Below, in pieces: positions 1 to 4,157 of a stretch of 9,494 bases of DNA. The first letter of the stretch is position 1. Each line of letters starts with the position of its first letter. The stretch covers positions 1-9,494 of the forward strand of contig JAJXTL010000115.1 of assembly GCA_021783855.1 (NCBI GenBank). Reading direction: 5' to 3'. Below the pieces are notes generated by a model. The model had not been told where the DNA came from. It saw only the letters and a program-made list of their open reading frames with translations, and did not search any database. This stretch comes from Pseudomonadota bacterium. GTDB taxonomy: Bacteria; Pseudomonadota; Gammaproteobacteria; Burkholderiales; Gallionellaceae. The position numbers and the translations under genes were made by a program.

Positions 1-20
1 CGGCTGAAATCGGCTGAAAT
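1..20. repeat. 10-bp tandem duplication
   Basis: CGGCTGAAAT is present twice in a row, followed by a related CGAGTAAATC. On the minus strand it encodes the repeated residues F-S-R-F-Q-P if the short open frame there is real. It touches the window edge, so the repeat number is unknown. Confidence 0.6.
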
Positions 21-174
21 CGAGTAAATCAGCCATTTTTAGCACTGAAACTGGCAGTTTCTTCATGCTGAAAGTGGCTTCTTAATATATCCGGGGCGCT
101 TCAGCCCGTTTATGCGAGGCTGGATTGAGGAGATATTTGCATAGTGTTTGTGAGCCTGAGCCGGGCTCGTCCAA
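1..174 (-). mobile_element. beginning of a third gene cassette, truncated by window edge
   Basis: On the minus strand this stretch follows the R' core GTTGGAC of the preceding attC, so it should be the first bases of the next cassette. No convincing gene is visible. A minus-strand ATG at 66-64 opens a frame that stays open to the window edge (22 codons, beginning MKKLPVSVLKMADLLDFS), with only a weak AAGAAG about 15 bases upstream; it would leave an unusually long leader of about 108 bases. A second ATG opens only a 10-codon frame. The content is therefore undetermined. Confidence 0.45.
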
Positions 175-246
175 CAAACGGTTCAGGTCGTGGCTCGCTC
201 CGCGATCACGACCTAACCTTAATCGTTCTAACCTTAATCGTTAGGC
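169..246 (-). other. attC recombination site of cassette 2 (with internal duplication)
   Basis: Read on the minus strand the site starts with R'' GCCTAAC (246-240) and ends with R' GTTGGAC (175-169), which fits GTTRRRY. Inside, GGTTAGGTCGTG pairs with CACGACCTGAACC, leaving one unpaired base in the arm, as expected for the extrahelical bases by which integron integrases choose the bottom strand. R'' is the exact complement of the GTTAGGC core at the start of cassette 2. The site is 78 bp long and would be 63 bp without a 15-bp duplication in its R''-L'' arm. It begins one base after the stop codon of the HEPN gene, the usual compact cassette layout. Confidence 0.82.
213..242. repeat. perfect 15-bp tandem duplication inside attC
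   Basis: CTAACCTTAATCGTT occurs at 213-227 and again at 228-242 without a mismatch. It lies in the R''-L'' side of the attC of cassette 2 and duplicates most of the R'' box and spacer, so the site carries two candidate R''-type sequences (GCCTAAC and GGTTAGAAC-like). The arm on the other side is not duplicated, so a folded site would have a lopsided bulge. Confidence 0.9.
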
Positions 247-247
247 C

Positions 248-820
248 TCATGCGCTCGTTGTACTGCCAGACCACATATCAGCATAGATGCCAAACCTTG
301 ACTCAGGAGGCAGCGCGTCAGTCAATAAGCCTTTGAGGGTATGTACGGCGGTGTAGGCGCGTTGTGCATTACCAAGCGTAATTTCGCGTTCCAACTTCGA
401 GAGTGGGGTATCAAACGCGGCCTTTACCAAGGCGGCTTCCGGTAATACGTTCTTCTTGTGAACTGGCTCAGGCCTAGGATGGGCAATGTCGTTTCGAAAA
501 CCGCCCAAGAATTGTAGCGTTGTCCAAGGCTCCTTCGTTGAGTCTCGAGTAATTGCAAGTCGTTCAACAAGAAGGTCAATTTTCTCGTGCGGACGCAACG
601 GTTCAAATGCGGCCCAGTCGGAAACGATGCGACTGCCTACTGCGTTCGCAAGAGCTTCAATGGCCAGCGACGCCATGACCATTGCCGCCAAGCACTTGTT
701 GAAGCGGCCGCGCTCAGTTGCCACCGCTTCCGCGATGTCGAGTTCCGCAGCGTGCAGGAGCATATGGTGCGCAAAGAAGGTGCGTTCCTCGGTCTTTCGG
801 AAAAGTGGCAGCGGATTCAT
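248..820 (-). CDS. cassette-encoded HEPN-domain protein, candidate RNase/defence protein
   Basis: The 190-residue product has no signal peptide or membrane segment and is predicted mainly helical. Residues 46-64 (AMVMASLAIEALANAVGSR) match the first long helix of HEPN domains with the E-A-L-x-N pattern. Residues 104-116 hold the hallmark R-x4-H motif, R109-N-D-I-A-H114, where Asn after Arg is the favoured residue in metal-independent HEPN RNases. HEPN proteins of this layout occur as toxins, abortive-infection RNases and in RNA-processing systems; the exact family was not recognised. There is no obvious antitoxin (MNT) gene beside it in this cassette. The ATG at 820 is 9 bases after the cassette core and has no Shine-Dalgarno, as in many cassettes; a later ATG is at codon 20. 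Seen: the motif and helix pattern. Inferred: RNase or defence role. Confidence 0.8.
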   Translation of the reverse strand: MNPLPLFRKTEERTFFAHHMLLHAAELDIAEAVATERGRFNKCLAAMVMASLAIEALANAVGSRIVSDWAAFEPLRPHEKIDLLVERLAITRDSTKEPWTTLQFLGGFRNDIAHPRPEPVHKKNVLPEAALVKAAFDTPLSKLEREITLGNAQRAYTAVHTLKGLLTDALPPESRFGIYADMWSGSTTSA

Positions 821-823
821 AAG

Positions 824-886
824 GCCTAACGTAGAATTAACCGGCTCCGCGCTTTTGCGGAGTCCGGGTTGAATGTCGGGTTAGCC
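824..886 (-). other. attC recombination site of cassette 1
   Basis: On the minus strand the 63-bp site reads R'' GGCTAAC (886-880), a 5-base spacer, L'' ATTCAACCCGG, an inner stem CTCCGC/GCGGAG around an AAAAGC loop, L' CCGGTTAAT, a 5-base spacer TCTAC, and R' GTTAGGC (830-824), a perfect GTTRRRY. The arms pair except for a few extra bases on the L'' side (C after ATT, an extra C, and an A before CTCCGC), which resemble attC extrahelical bases. R'' is the exact complement of the GTTAGCC core at 1782-1776 that begins this cassette. Size, spacers and asymmetry all fit a classical attC. Confidence 0.9.
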
Positions 887-1781
887 CTCACGACTTCACC
901 TCAGCAGGATGCGTGGCAATTTTGTTAATCGCAAGCCGGGATTGCTTCATTGGCCTTTGGGACAAACTCATAAACAAACTGCTGATCGCTTGTTGCTGTT
1001 TTGTATTTTATCCTCGCTGTTGTTAATGCCGGCAACGTGTCAATCGTTGGGTCATTGTGCTCAGCGTGATGCTTTAGCAAAGTGACCCGCATCTTCGGCG
1101 GATCAGCGGACACGGGATAGATTGCCATATCTCCTCCATGCGTTAGCTTCCACCAAATTGGGAAACGTTCACCTCCTGGTTCCATCGAAACCGGGTTGAA
1201 CCAAGCAGTAAACCTGTCGTCGGGAATGGTCTTGGGTAGCGTGAACCAATATGTCACGCCACCTTCTGGTTTCTTTTCCTGATCAGGAAGGCGTACATGC
1301 ATTGCGACGTAATTCTGAGCTGGATGCCCGTATCCCTGCTCATATACCGGCTGATCTGCGACCGTCGAGTCCTTTAGTGGCATAAAGCCAGAACCGTCGC
1401 TAAACTGACCAGATCGGATTAAGACCTCTCCAAAGCCAATCCCATAAGTGTGTATGGTTCTGGGGCCGCTAGAAGTTGCGACTCGCCGAATCGTCTTCGG
1501 CGCAAGCTCTAGCTGTTGCTGAGAATACTTTGTGAATAGAGGATGATTTTCGAGTCGATCCAATTCAAGATCATTGAAGTAGATTCGTTTGGTCGGCAGA
1601 CATACCTGAATCTGGACTTCAGTATTGGCATCAAGCTGAGAATCGTTACTCCCCCAAACGGGACTCGTAAAGCAAACCTGCAAGGCCATAAGAATGGACA
1701 AGCCAATAAAACGGCCAAAGCCTTGAACGTCGGGCATATGAATCGAATGGCTCATTTGCGGGGGCTCCATGTGAGGGCTAA
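830..1781 (-). mobile_element. gene cassette 1, attI-proximal (exported protein)
   Basis: The first cassette runs from the cleavage point in GTTAGCC (1781) to the G of the next core (830), about 952 bp. The 12-mer GTTAGCCCTCAC occurs at its start (minus strand, 1782-1771) and again on the plus strand at 880-891, so the similarity between the cassette end and its own start extends beyond the 7-base core. It carries one gene followed by about 38 bases and then the attC. Confidence 0.82.
925..1755 (-). CDS. cassette-encoded exported protein of unknown function
   Basis: I do not recognise a family. With the start chosen here the product has 276 residues. The N-terminus has a short polar region, then a hydrophobic core (FIGLSILMALQVCF) and a plausible signal-peptidase site after P-V-W-G about residue 35, so the protein is probably periplasmic or secreted. 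The mature part is rich in Pro, aromatic and charged residues, has no further membrane segment, and has only two cysteines, one near its start (VCLPTKRIY) and one at the extreme C-terminus (PACD), which could form a disulfide. The start at 1755 has a GGAG Shine-Dalgarno (1768-1765) 9 bases upstream. An in-frame ATG at 1770 adds five residues and lies just 11 bases into the cassette without a Shine-Dalgarno; it remains possible. The coding sequence is more A/T-rich than the housekeeping genes to the right, as expected for an acquired cassette. Confidence 0.75.
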   Translation of the reverse strand: MSHSIHMPDVQGFGRFIGLSILMALQVCFTSPVWGSNDSQLDANTEVQIQVCLPTKRIYFNDLELDRLENHPLFTKYSQQQLELAPKTIRRVATSSGPRTIHTYGIGFGEVLIRSGQFSDGSGFMPLKDSTVADQPVYEQGYGHPAQNYVAMHVRLPDQEKKPEGGVTYWFTLPKTIPDDRFTAWFNPVSMEPGGERFPIWWKLTHGGDMAIYPVSADPPKMRVTLLKHHAEHNDPTIDTLPALTTARIKYKTATSDQQFVYEFVPKANEAIPACD

Positions 1782-1840
1782 CGTTTAAATATACCGAACT
1801 TCTTCTGTATAAGAAAGTGAGTGTTCTGTATAAGATGTCC
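1776..1840 (-). other. candidate attI primary recombination site
   Basis: This lies between the divergent intI and the first cassette, where attI is found in integrons. The core on the minus strand is G^TTAGCC (1782-1776), the junction with cassette 1. About 20 and 41 bases upstream are two direct copies of TCTTATACAGAA, reminiscent of the DR1/DR2 integrase-binding repeats of attI1. A minus-strand TATATT at 1793-1788 could be the -10 of a cassette promoter (Pc), but I found no good -35 at 16-18 bases, so Pc is not assigned. The outer boundary is approximate. Confidence 0.7.
1803..1835. repeat. 12-bp direct repeat pair next to attI
   Basis: TTCTGTATAAGA occurs at 1803-1814 and 1824-1835, exactly 21 bases apart, about two helical turns, so bound proteins would sit on the same face of the DNA. 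Integrase-binding direct repeats of attI are the likeliest role; an operator for intI is the alternative. Confidence 0.75.
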
Positions 1841-1849
1841 TGATATACT
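1841..1849 (+). promoter_or_regulatory. putative extended -10 promoter of intI
   Basis: TGATATACT matches an extended -10 (TGnTATACT against TGnTATAAT) and ends 37 bases before the intI start codon. There is no clear -35 at 17 bases, which an extended -10 can tolerate. The direct repeat at 1824-1835 lies just upstream, so whatever binds it could affect this promoter. No CTGT-N8-ACAG LexA box is visible. Confidence 0.4.
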
Positions 1850-1886
1850 GTAACCTACTGATTTAACAACATACTGGAAATGCAAC

Positions 1887-2987
1887 ATGTCACCGCCTCC
1901 TGCTAACTCAGCACCACATGCGCCTATGCTGTTGGAGGTTGTGCGTGAGCGCATCCAGGCAAAGCATTATAGTCGGCGAACGGAAGAATCATACTCGAAC
2001 TGGATCAAAAAGTTCGTGTTTTTTCATCATAAACAACACCCTCGCGATATGGGGGCGCCAGAAGTGGAAGCCTTTCTGACCGACCTTGCCGTCAACGGCA
2101 GGGTTTCTGCTTCAACGCAGACTCAGGCCTTGTCCGCATTGCTGTTCCTTTACCGGGAGGTGCTTGGCATAGACCTTCCGTGGATGGATGGCCTGGTGCG
2201 AGCAAAACCCTCTCAACGGATTCCAATGGTGCTGTCGGTCAATGAGATTCATCGGTTGATGGCTAGCCTGGATGGGGTGTATTCACTGATGGCCAGATTG
2301 CTTTATGGAAGCGGGATGCGCTTAATGGAATGCGTCAGGTTACGTGTAAAGGACGTTGACTTTGATCGCCTTGAGGTAGTGGTGCGTCAGGGGAAAGGAC
2401 GCAAAGACAGGGTGACGATGTTGCCGGAGTCTCTGGTGCCGGAGTTGCAGGTGCATCTGAAAAAGGTGCGCGTTCTCTTCGATATGGACCGGAAAAACGA
2501 CGTCCCGGGCGTTGAAATGCCGGATGCGCTGGCGAAGAAATATCCCAATGTACCTGGCGGAGAAACTCGTCAGACACATTCCCCTCACCCAAACCCTCTC
2601 CCGCAAGCGGGCGAGGGGACAAACGTATCGCTGCGCGACATTGAAATCACAGCGGGCAAAGAGTGGGGTTGGTTCTGGGTATTTCCCGCCTCAGGCTTGT
2701 CAGATGACCCGAGAACAGGAATTCACCGTCGCCATCACATCTACGAGCAGAATATTCAACGGGCTATTCGCGTTGGAGTGAAAAAGGCAGGAATTGCAAA
2801 GCCTGCTACTACCCACACACTCAGACATTCTTTCGCCACGCATTTGCTGGAGTGCGGCTATGACATCCGTACTATCCAGGAATTGCTCGGACATTCTGAC
2901 GTTTCCACCACAATGATATACACTCATGTGCTGAACAAAGGTGGGCGAGGAGTGATCAGTCCCATCGACAGGATGGTGCTGACGTGA
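1887..2987 (+). CDS. intI: integron integrase IntI (tyrosine recombinase) with internal repeat-derived insertion
   Basis: The protein recombines attI and attC sites, the latter as folded single strands. The N-terminal SAM-like core-binding domain spans about residues 14-105 ([22 protein letters not shown]). The catalytic domain shows Arg145 ([13 protein letters not shown]), Lys170 ([10 protein letters not shown]), His310/Arg313 ([14 protein letters not shown]), His336 ([11 protein letters not shown]) and nucleophile Tyr345 ([14 protein letters not shown]). The IntI-specific segment is present ([31 protein letters not shown]), so this is an integron integrase and not XerC/D. At 366 residues it is longer than the usual 320-340: residues about 223-255, between KYPNV and AGKEWGW, are extra and contain a REP-like repeat. 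All catalytic residues and the frame are intact. The ATG at 1887 has GGAA seven bases upstream. Whether the enzyme is still active cannot be read from the sequence. Confidence 0.95.
2581..2618 (+). repeat. REP-like palindromic repeat inside intI
   Basis: The element has the CCCCTCACCCaAACC leader followed by a hairpin: CCCTCTCCCGC (2594-2604), loop AA, GCGGGCGAGGG (2607-2617), 11-bp arms with one T-G mismatch pair. This is the form of a palindromic repeat dispersed in many proteobacterial genomes. It is normally intergenic; here it is translated as [13 protein letters not shown] within the integrase. The whole stretch missing from other integron integrases is larger, about 2553-2651 (99 bp, 33 codons). 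Confidence 0.85.
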
Positions 2988-3000
2988 AGCACTGCTTCAC
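2984..3000. repeat. perfect 8-bp inverted repeat over the intI stop codon
   Basis: GTGAAGCA and TGCTTCAC flank a single C. The left arm contains the TGA stop of intI. No T-run follows, so it is not an ordinary intrinsic terminator. It may be the end of a small inserted element that separates the present intI end from the integrase relic at 3041-3070. Confidence 0.6.
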
Positions 3001-3040
3001 GAACGACGAGCGGGCGAGCTGTGCAAAGGGAGCCCCGGAC

Positions 3041-3070
3041 CGTGGCGTAATTAGTCCGCTGGACAGGTGA
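3041..3070 (+). pseudogene. relic of a second integrase C-terminus
   Basis: This frame reads R-G-V-I-S-P-L-D-R-stop, nearly the same as R-G-V-I-S-P-I-D-R in the tail of the intact intI (2947-2973) and the typical end of integron integrases. Over the 24 bases from GGN to AGG the two copies agree at 18 positions, and the differences are mainly at third codon positions. It lies in another frame from intI and has no start, so it is a fragment. Alternatives are a displaced original tail of the same gene or chance similarity; the length is too short to be certain. Confidence 0.55.
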
Positions 3071-3107
3071 GTTCGAAAATTGAGGTTGGTTTATTTAGGG
3101 AGTGTTT

Positions 3108-4157
3108 ATGGGTTTAGGGCCGATAATGCTGGATGTGCTGGGCACGGAGTTGACAGAGGATGACGTGACGCGGCTTTTGCATCCGATGACCGGCGGCGTG
3201 ATTCTGTTCCGGCGCAATTTTGTATCGGTTACTCAATTGACCGAGCTGACTTCCGCGATACGCGCGTTGCGCCCGACACCGTTGCTGATTGCAGTGGATC
3301 ATGAGGGCGGGCGGGTACAACGCTTTCACGATGGTTTTACGCGCATTCCTGCCATGCGCGAACTGGGCAAGATATGGGATCGCTCCCCGCAACGCGCCCG
3401 TCATCTGGCGCACCAGACAGGCTTCGTGCTGGCGGCCGAGCTGCGTGGCTGTGGCGTCGATTTCAGTTTTACGCCGGTGCTGGATGTGGATCACGGGCAA
3501 AGCAGCGTGATCGGCGACCGGGCCTTTCACAGCGATCCGCAGGCGATTGCGGAACTCGCGCACCATTTGTTGATGGGCTTGAAACAGGGAGGGATGCATA
3601 CCGTCGGCAAGCATTTTCCGGGACACGGTTTCGTTACAGCCGATTCTCATCTGGCGATTCCGGTGGACGAACGCCCGTTTGTGGATATTGAACTCTGCGA
3701 TCTGGTGCCCTTCCGGCAGATGATCGGTTTCGGTATGACGGCGGTGATGCCCGCGCATGTCATCTACCCTGCGCTGGATAGCCGTCCGGCAGGATTTTCT
3801 CCAGTCTGGTTGAAAACCATATTACGCGACCGGATGGGTTTTGAAGGATGTATTTTCAGCGATGATCTGAGTATGGAAGGGGCAAGCGTCGCCGGCGGCA
3901 TCGTAGAGCGGGCTTCTGCTGCGCTCAACGCGGGATGCGATATGGTGCTGGTGTGCAACAAGCCTGAATCGGCGGATGAGTTGCTGCACGGTTTGCACTG
4001 GGAAATGCCCGCGACCAGCCGCGCCCGCCTGATTCAGATGCGCGGCATGCCGCATCCTGTTTCTATGGTAAAACTGCACGAGGATGCACAGTTTCTCAAG
4101 GCGTTGCAAGAGGTGGCAGGTGTCGGCATCAGTTCGCCTGAACTACCATTAACGTGA
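3108..4157 (+). CDS. nagZ: beta-N-acetylglucosaminidase NagZ (cell-wall recycling)
   Basis: NagZ is a cytoplasmic glycoside hydrolase family 3 enzyme that removes GlcNAc from GlcNAc-1,6-anhydroMurNAc peptides during peptidoglycan recycling. The 349-residue product is close to the family size (E. coli about 341). Visible signatures are [12 protein letters not shown] at the N-terminus, the [12 protein letters not shown] stretch (about 63-74), KHFPGHG (168-174), the Asp179-Ser180-His181 catalytic dyad segment in TADSH, and FSDDLSMEG with nucleophile Asp252. MPAHVIY and [10 protein letters not shown] are also conserved. The ATG at 3108 has a strong AGGGAG five bases upstream; a GTG two codons earlier overlaps that Shine-Dalgarno and is less likely. 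It is preceded by the integrase relic and followed by a 55-base gap to zipA. As a housekeeping gene it probably marks the edge of the integron. Confidence 0.96.

Follow-up and report, generated by a model that had tools for sequence, protein, structure and literature searches.

A sedentary chromosomal integron beside nagZ in a Gallionellaceae genome and an in-frame palindromic repeat in its integrase gene

General features of the integron

The DNA analysed (9,494 nucleotides, hereafter the window) very probably carries a sedentary chromosomal integron of the Gallionellaceae type beside nagZ, whose integrase gene separately took up a copy of a dispersed palindromic repeat and whose integrase may still work. 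The integrase family model, the attC models and the attI comparison supported the proposal of the preliminary description that the window holds a chromosomal integron whose array, divergent from intI, comprises two complete cassettes and the first part of another. An intI of the integron-integrase subfamily, sites with attC architecture and an attI region with variable cassettes beyond it were all present. Downstream of intI, Pfam and NCBIfam identified nagZ, a zipA-type gene, ligA, galU, hpt and an MTA/MTI phosphorylase gene, which places the integron among housekeeping genes of the host, as in a chromosomal (sedentary) integron. A palindromic insert in intI and a duplication in the second attC site were observed in addition to what had been described.

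In the proposed mechanism, cassettes would enter and leave the array at attI (core site 1782-1776) through the action of IntI on the folded bottom strand of attC. At present the array consists of two complete cassettes, one encoding an unknown protein and the other a HEPN-like protein, and the beginning of a third.

Integrase gene and palindromic insert

The integron integrase gene intI (1887-2987, plus strand) encodes 366 amino acids and matched TIGR02249 with 460 bits (cut-off 265). VchIntIA (PDB 2a3v) was a full-length homologue (E 9.7e-116), which the window integrase exceeds by 34 residues placed between KYPN and the alanine after it. Residues R145, H310, R313, H336 and Y345, which we take to be the catalytic residues, were present and were invariant in 53 aligned integrases. 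The nearest listed relatives free of the insert have 328-329 residues. A second copy of the intI C-terminus (RGVISPLDR-stop) was found at 3041-3070 on the plus strand, between intI and nagZ, and a similar duplicated end occurs in the related locus L001.

The extra 34 residues (222-255) are encoded by an in-frame insert of 102 bp (2550-2651, plus strand) lying between KYPN and AGKEWGW, and its DNA is palindromic. This position is presumably just after the IntI-specific I2 helix or segment. Residue Y220 of IntI1 is placed within I2 in a passage of PMC7790495. An assembly join as the source of the insert is argued against by the integrase P0001, which is 98% identical with an equal insert and lies on a contig of 75,929 bases.

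Distribution and coding of the repeat

The insert belongs to a repeat for which 134 of 158 Gallionellaceae genomes gave a match, no more than five candidates being scored in each genome. Full-length copies measured about 120 bp and showed several hairpins by eye. A copy was counted as lying within an ORF if the frame continued without a stop for at least 60 codons to either side of it, and s1 denotes the reading frame of the intI copy. The fetched loci held 77 distinct copies, which were ranked by similarity to the coding intI copy and are thus not a random sample; their frames were s1 (24), s2 (3), s0 (1), a2 (11) and a1 (1). When loci L161-L182, which had been obtained by protein searches, were set aside, the remaining 67 copies gave s1 (16), s2 (3), s0 (1), a2 (6), a1 (1) and a0 (0).

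In 9 of 20 hand-picked host proteins a single Pfam match spanned the insert, and in the other 11 the insert lay outside or between matches. The hosts with a spanning match were TsaD (two), polyprenyl synthetase (two), TGT, TilS, a DAO-type oxidoreductase, a P-type ATPase and a Methyltransf_28 protein; the repeat was in frame in tsaD, tgt, tilS and polyprenyl synthetase genes (L129, L133, L198, L170 and L138). With a sense-frame bias of 16:1:3 and these Pfam hosts, the repeat is read in one frame across unrelated genes and is a protein-coding palindromic element that resembles Rickettsia palindromic elements (RPE) in behaviour. Open in one frame, a copy would yield a peptide rich in proline and at most about 40 residues long, and could for that reason settle in genes without breaking them; intI would have taken up one such copy, about 120 bp in its full form.

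Inserts at the same site in other integrases

An insert at this site was present in 4 of 185 integrase sequences or pieces, namely the window, P0001, P0043 and P0086; the set comprised the listed homologues, the window and ORFs from loci, and the script could see inserts in uninterrupted ORFs only. Inspection by eye added L117 (genome G031), with an insert at the same site and stop codons inside the repeat, and L118, in which the repeat lies some 13 residues farther along. With a 61-aa query spanning the insert, the only intI found to carry it among the 158 family genomes was that of G031, and no intI with the insert was found among 399 genomes of the order. L164 was tried as a further carrier and rejected, as it had no intI outside the repeat. 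Separately, the Rhodocyclaceae-named integrase P0051 has two other insertions at different sites, one of them with a similar proline-rich peptide (PHPQPLSRRGRGE).

In a tree of 157 rows with the insert columns removed, the carriers fell in four places among insert-free integrases. The window and P0001 grouped in a clade of seven (support 0.93), P0043 in a clade of three (0.96), P0086 in a clade of three (0.84) and L117 in a clade of four that includes L118 (0.90), and the node joining the window and P0086 had a support of 0.34. Several independent insertions at a preferred target, the AAC/AAT codon in the conserved KYPN-AG stretch, would account for this scatter, for the presence of AAC or AAT there in 25 of the 53 places matched (in loci that partly overlap) and for the copy about 13 residues onward in L118; yet the insert of every carrier starts with valine after the asparagine, of 24 other copies whose left end could be read only one (L221) has GTG there, and a 34-residue shortened form is common to the window and P0043. 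The valine start and the shared shortened form suggest a shared origin and transfer of the segment rather than four independent insertions, so that repeated insertion, a serious contender, is given rather less than an even chance. No clear gene-conversion patch was seen around the P0043 insert on inspection by eye.

Effect of the insert on the integrase

The predicted structure of the integrase had a mean pLDDT of 75.3, with values below 50 at residues 220-258 (the insert), 1-10, 339-347 (which holds Y345) and 350-353. The insert would lie in the loop just after the I2 segment, the part that recognises attC. Low confidence over the insert is what a flexible loop would give, and hence folding and function of the integrase may well be retained; our best guess is that the insert forms a tolerated, flexible loop.

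Loss of integrase activity through the insert is possible. That the insertion crippled the integrase and that the integron is being lost, as in L001, is nevertheless judged unlikely, since no key residue is missing from the intact ORF, P0001 has the same insert in an intact ORF, and dN/dS between the window intI and the insert-free L101 was 0.089 (329 aligned codons; DNA 88-91% identical), a value that spans the whole time since the split from L101, including the time before the insertion. Weighing on the side of decay are the placing of the insert in a functionally loaded loop, the stop codons inside the same-site repeat of L117, the disturbance of the second attC by a duplication, and the close relative L001, which keeps only an intI remnant beside nagZ and in which the attC covariance model R1 (see below) found no attC.

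Under the preferred reading of a working integrase with a tolerated loop, a bolder proposal can be made with considerable doubt: a selfish palindromic element of Gallionellaceae, inserting in frame and encoding a proline-rich peptide of about 40 residues, would have come to occupy the same codon of the attC-recognition loop in several divergent integrases, leaving these working with an added loop. If this were true, the added loop may alter the choice of attC or attI.

Recombination sites

The core sites on the minus strand lay where they had first been placed, with GTTAGCC at 1782-1776 (the attI/cassette 1 core site), GTTAGGC at 830-824 and GTTGGAC at 175-169. The start of each cassette was likewise confirmed to be complementary to its own R'' region, over 12 of 12 nt for the first (880-891/1771-1782) and 93% of 14 nt for the second (239-252/818-831).

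Three covariance models were used for attC. R1 was built from six attCs of one other genome (L061); R2 from 82 R1 matches in 45 searched loci, some of them overlapping, with the window left out; and R3 from ten sites of the attC2 family, which were chosen by similarity to the window attC2 and make this model less independent. The first site, attC1 (824-886, minus strand, 63 nt), scored 78.8 bits (E 7.8e-21) with R1 and 71.3 bits (E 8.2e-18) with R2, and the next R1 match in the window had an E-value of only 0.49. The second, attC2, was unscored by R1 and R2 in the covariance search of the window and reached 84.5 bits (E 4.5e-25) with R3, so that both sites score as attCs, attC2 with its own family model only. 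Its location on the minus strand was upheld and its proposed extent of 169-246 was not: the canonical site covers 63 nt (169-231), and the remainder derives from a 15-bp tandem duplication (213-227/228-242) that is absent from ten relatives.

DNA matches to the attC2 family were found in 37 of 158 Gallionellaceae genomes, at up to 97% identity. In the ten sites of this family the body was nearly constant and the R'' box varied, a pattern expected for attCs, and in three genomes (G061, G036 and G141) such a site lay about 1.5-3 kb from intI on one contig. attC1 and attC2 are members of separate attC families, each occurring in Gallionellaceae. The earlier observation that the two attCs are unlike thus stands, and the origin of the cassettes from different sources, which had been thought probable, becomes possible only, as both families are present in Gallionellaceae.

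On bottom-strand folding, attC2 had a z-score of -3.96 (0 of 200 shuffles as good) and attC1 one of -2.83 (2 of 200 shuffles as good). A crude attC finder based on folding only returned attC1 alone (-13.5 kcal/mol), a weak result, as 9 of 100 shuffles reached -14. The R''/R' pairing value was 0.01 in the window attC2 and 0.02-0.46 in seven other family members; a block of R''/R' pairing by the duplication was considered. Rfam gave no match in the window, nor in 1-3110 at E 0.1.

The attI side and intI leader (1783-1886) were compared with those of L101. The two sequences were nearly identical from CTAACGTTT / CTAACGTTTAAATATACC to the intI start codon and, by eye, unlike beyond the core site. 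The likeness ends there and so puts a break at the core site, which is the trace that cassette exchange at attI would be expected to leave. Direct repeats TTCTGTATAAGA at 1803-1814 and 1824-1835, 21 bp apart, are both kept in L101 with one letter differing and are possibly integrase binding sites. No sigma-70-like promoter was found at 1700-3200, and the search for a LexA box gave no good one, the best agreeing in 6 of 8 letters.

Gene cassettes

Cassette 1 (830-1781, minus strand) is bounded by core sites and includes attC1. Its ORF (925-1770, minus strand) encodes a protein of 281 amino acids with 68 homologues. The protein matched no Pfam or NCBIfam family, its PDB sequence search was without a match, and 41 homologues gave no consistent Pfam match. 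No relatives turned up among 399 genomes of the order or in plasmids, in both cases in searches run without a positive control.

Cassette 2 (175-829, minus strand), bounded by the core sites 830-824 and 175-169, includes attC2, and its ORF (248-820, minus strand) encodes a HEPN-like protein of 190 amino acids. Pfam and NCBIfam were empty for this protein as well. It has the helical fold of HEPN proteins, and it agrees with the Rx4-6H motif rule of these proteins through RNDIAH at residues 109-114 (R109-x4-H114); in 50 sequences H114 was invariant and R109 was conserved in at least 90%. Of the 399 genomes of the order, 3 had relatives of cassette 2 (best 46% identity), and two weak relatives were found in plasmids. 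The initial statement that neither cassette has a resistance gene is consistent with the lack of Pfam and NCBIfam matches for the two proteins and with the HEPN-like fold of the second. By tblastn, neither cassette gene was seen in the 80 nagZ loci; copies in syntenic position outside a cassette would have told against the cassettes.

The start of the third cassette (1-174, minus strand) is marked by the core site 175-169 and is truncated by the end of the window. The cassette 2 protein of the window is recorded with a longest contig of 9,494 bases, and the window therefore appears to be the entire contig, which puts the array beyond its left end out of reach. An 11-bp tandem repeat (cggctgaaatc) at 1-22, the beginning of the contig, is possibly the point of the assembly break.

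The reading of the attC-like sites as chance palindromes and of the cassette genes as ordinary chromosomal genes, to which the indecisive fold-only test and the missing of attC2 by R1 and R2 lend something, is refuted by the attC model scores (E 7.8e-21 and 4.5e-25) and the attI breakpoint at the core site, and with the cassette genes also rare in the order it can be dismissed for practical purposes.

nagZ locus in relatives

The nagZ protein was 94% identical to that of L001, from a metagenome-assembled genome, and L001 was 94% identical to the window from 3012 onward. Results of tblastn showed intI sequence upstream of nagZ in 10 of 80 nagZ loci, 63 of which had at least 1.5 kb of upstream sequence. 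Among these ten loci, L001 and L051 held remnants, L029 met the contig end and L031 was split into two frames. An intI match at E 1e-40 was obtained in 88 of 158 Gallionellaceae genomes. From these counts of intI and its remnants, the integron looks old beside nagZ in this group and seems to have been lost often. In the genome of a close relative, L090 (G001 C16) contained intI pieces 84% identical at the C-terminus and 79% identical over residues 79-167.

Comparison with known systems and significance

Sedentary chromosomal integrons of other bacteria likewise have a divergent intI, an attI, cassettes ending in attC and mostly unknown cargo. The window differs from them in the coding palindromic insert in intI, the two unlike attC families and the locus on the nagZ side. 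By itself, the integron is one further environmental array with a HEPN-like cargo gene.

Passages of PMC10969869 describe Rickettsia palindromic elements as in-frame fusions with genes unrelated to one another, a conserved peptide being typical of each. The Gallionellaceae repeat is likened to them by behaviour and not by alignment: both are in-frame palindromes, and the host of the latter is a free-living family of iron bacteria. The GTAG/CGTC REPs are palindromes inside ORFs, many of them in genes for DNA synthesis and repair, and recB of two Xanthomonas species was hit by them at about one site, according to a section of PMC3733652. REP units as given there are 20-40 bp, in contrast to about 120 bp with several hairpins in the Gallionellaceae repeat, and the main-text section of that paper on REPs in ORFs names no integron integrase as a host. 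Among open-licence PMC papers, no literature was found on this repeat, its peptide or a palindromic insert in an integron integrase, and none on Gallionella integrons. Coding palindromes are thus already known from Rickettsia and, as REPs, from several other genomes, and the Gallionellaceae repeat family was not found described.

The insert outweighs the integron in significance, since it extends coding palindromes to a family of free-living iron oxidisers, inside conserved housekeeping genes. Acquisition of the I2 helix is held, in a part of PMC7790495, to have given integron integrases single-strand recombination, and natural integrases with an extra loop next to this helix are now on offer. 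Insert-free relatives of intI are up to 97% identical over aligned columns, and natural pairs could therefore reveal how much that region tolerates.
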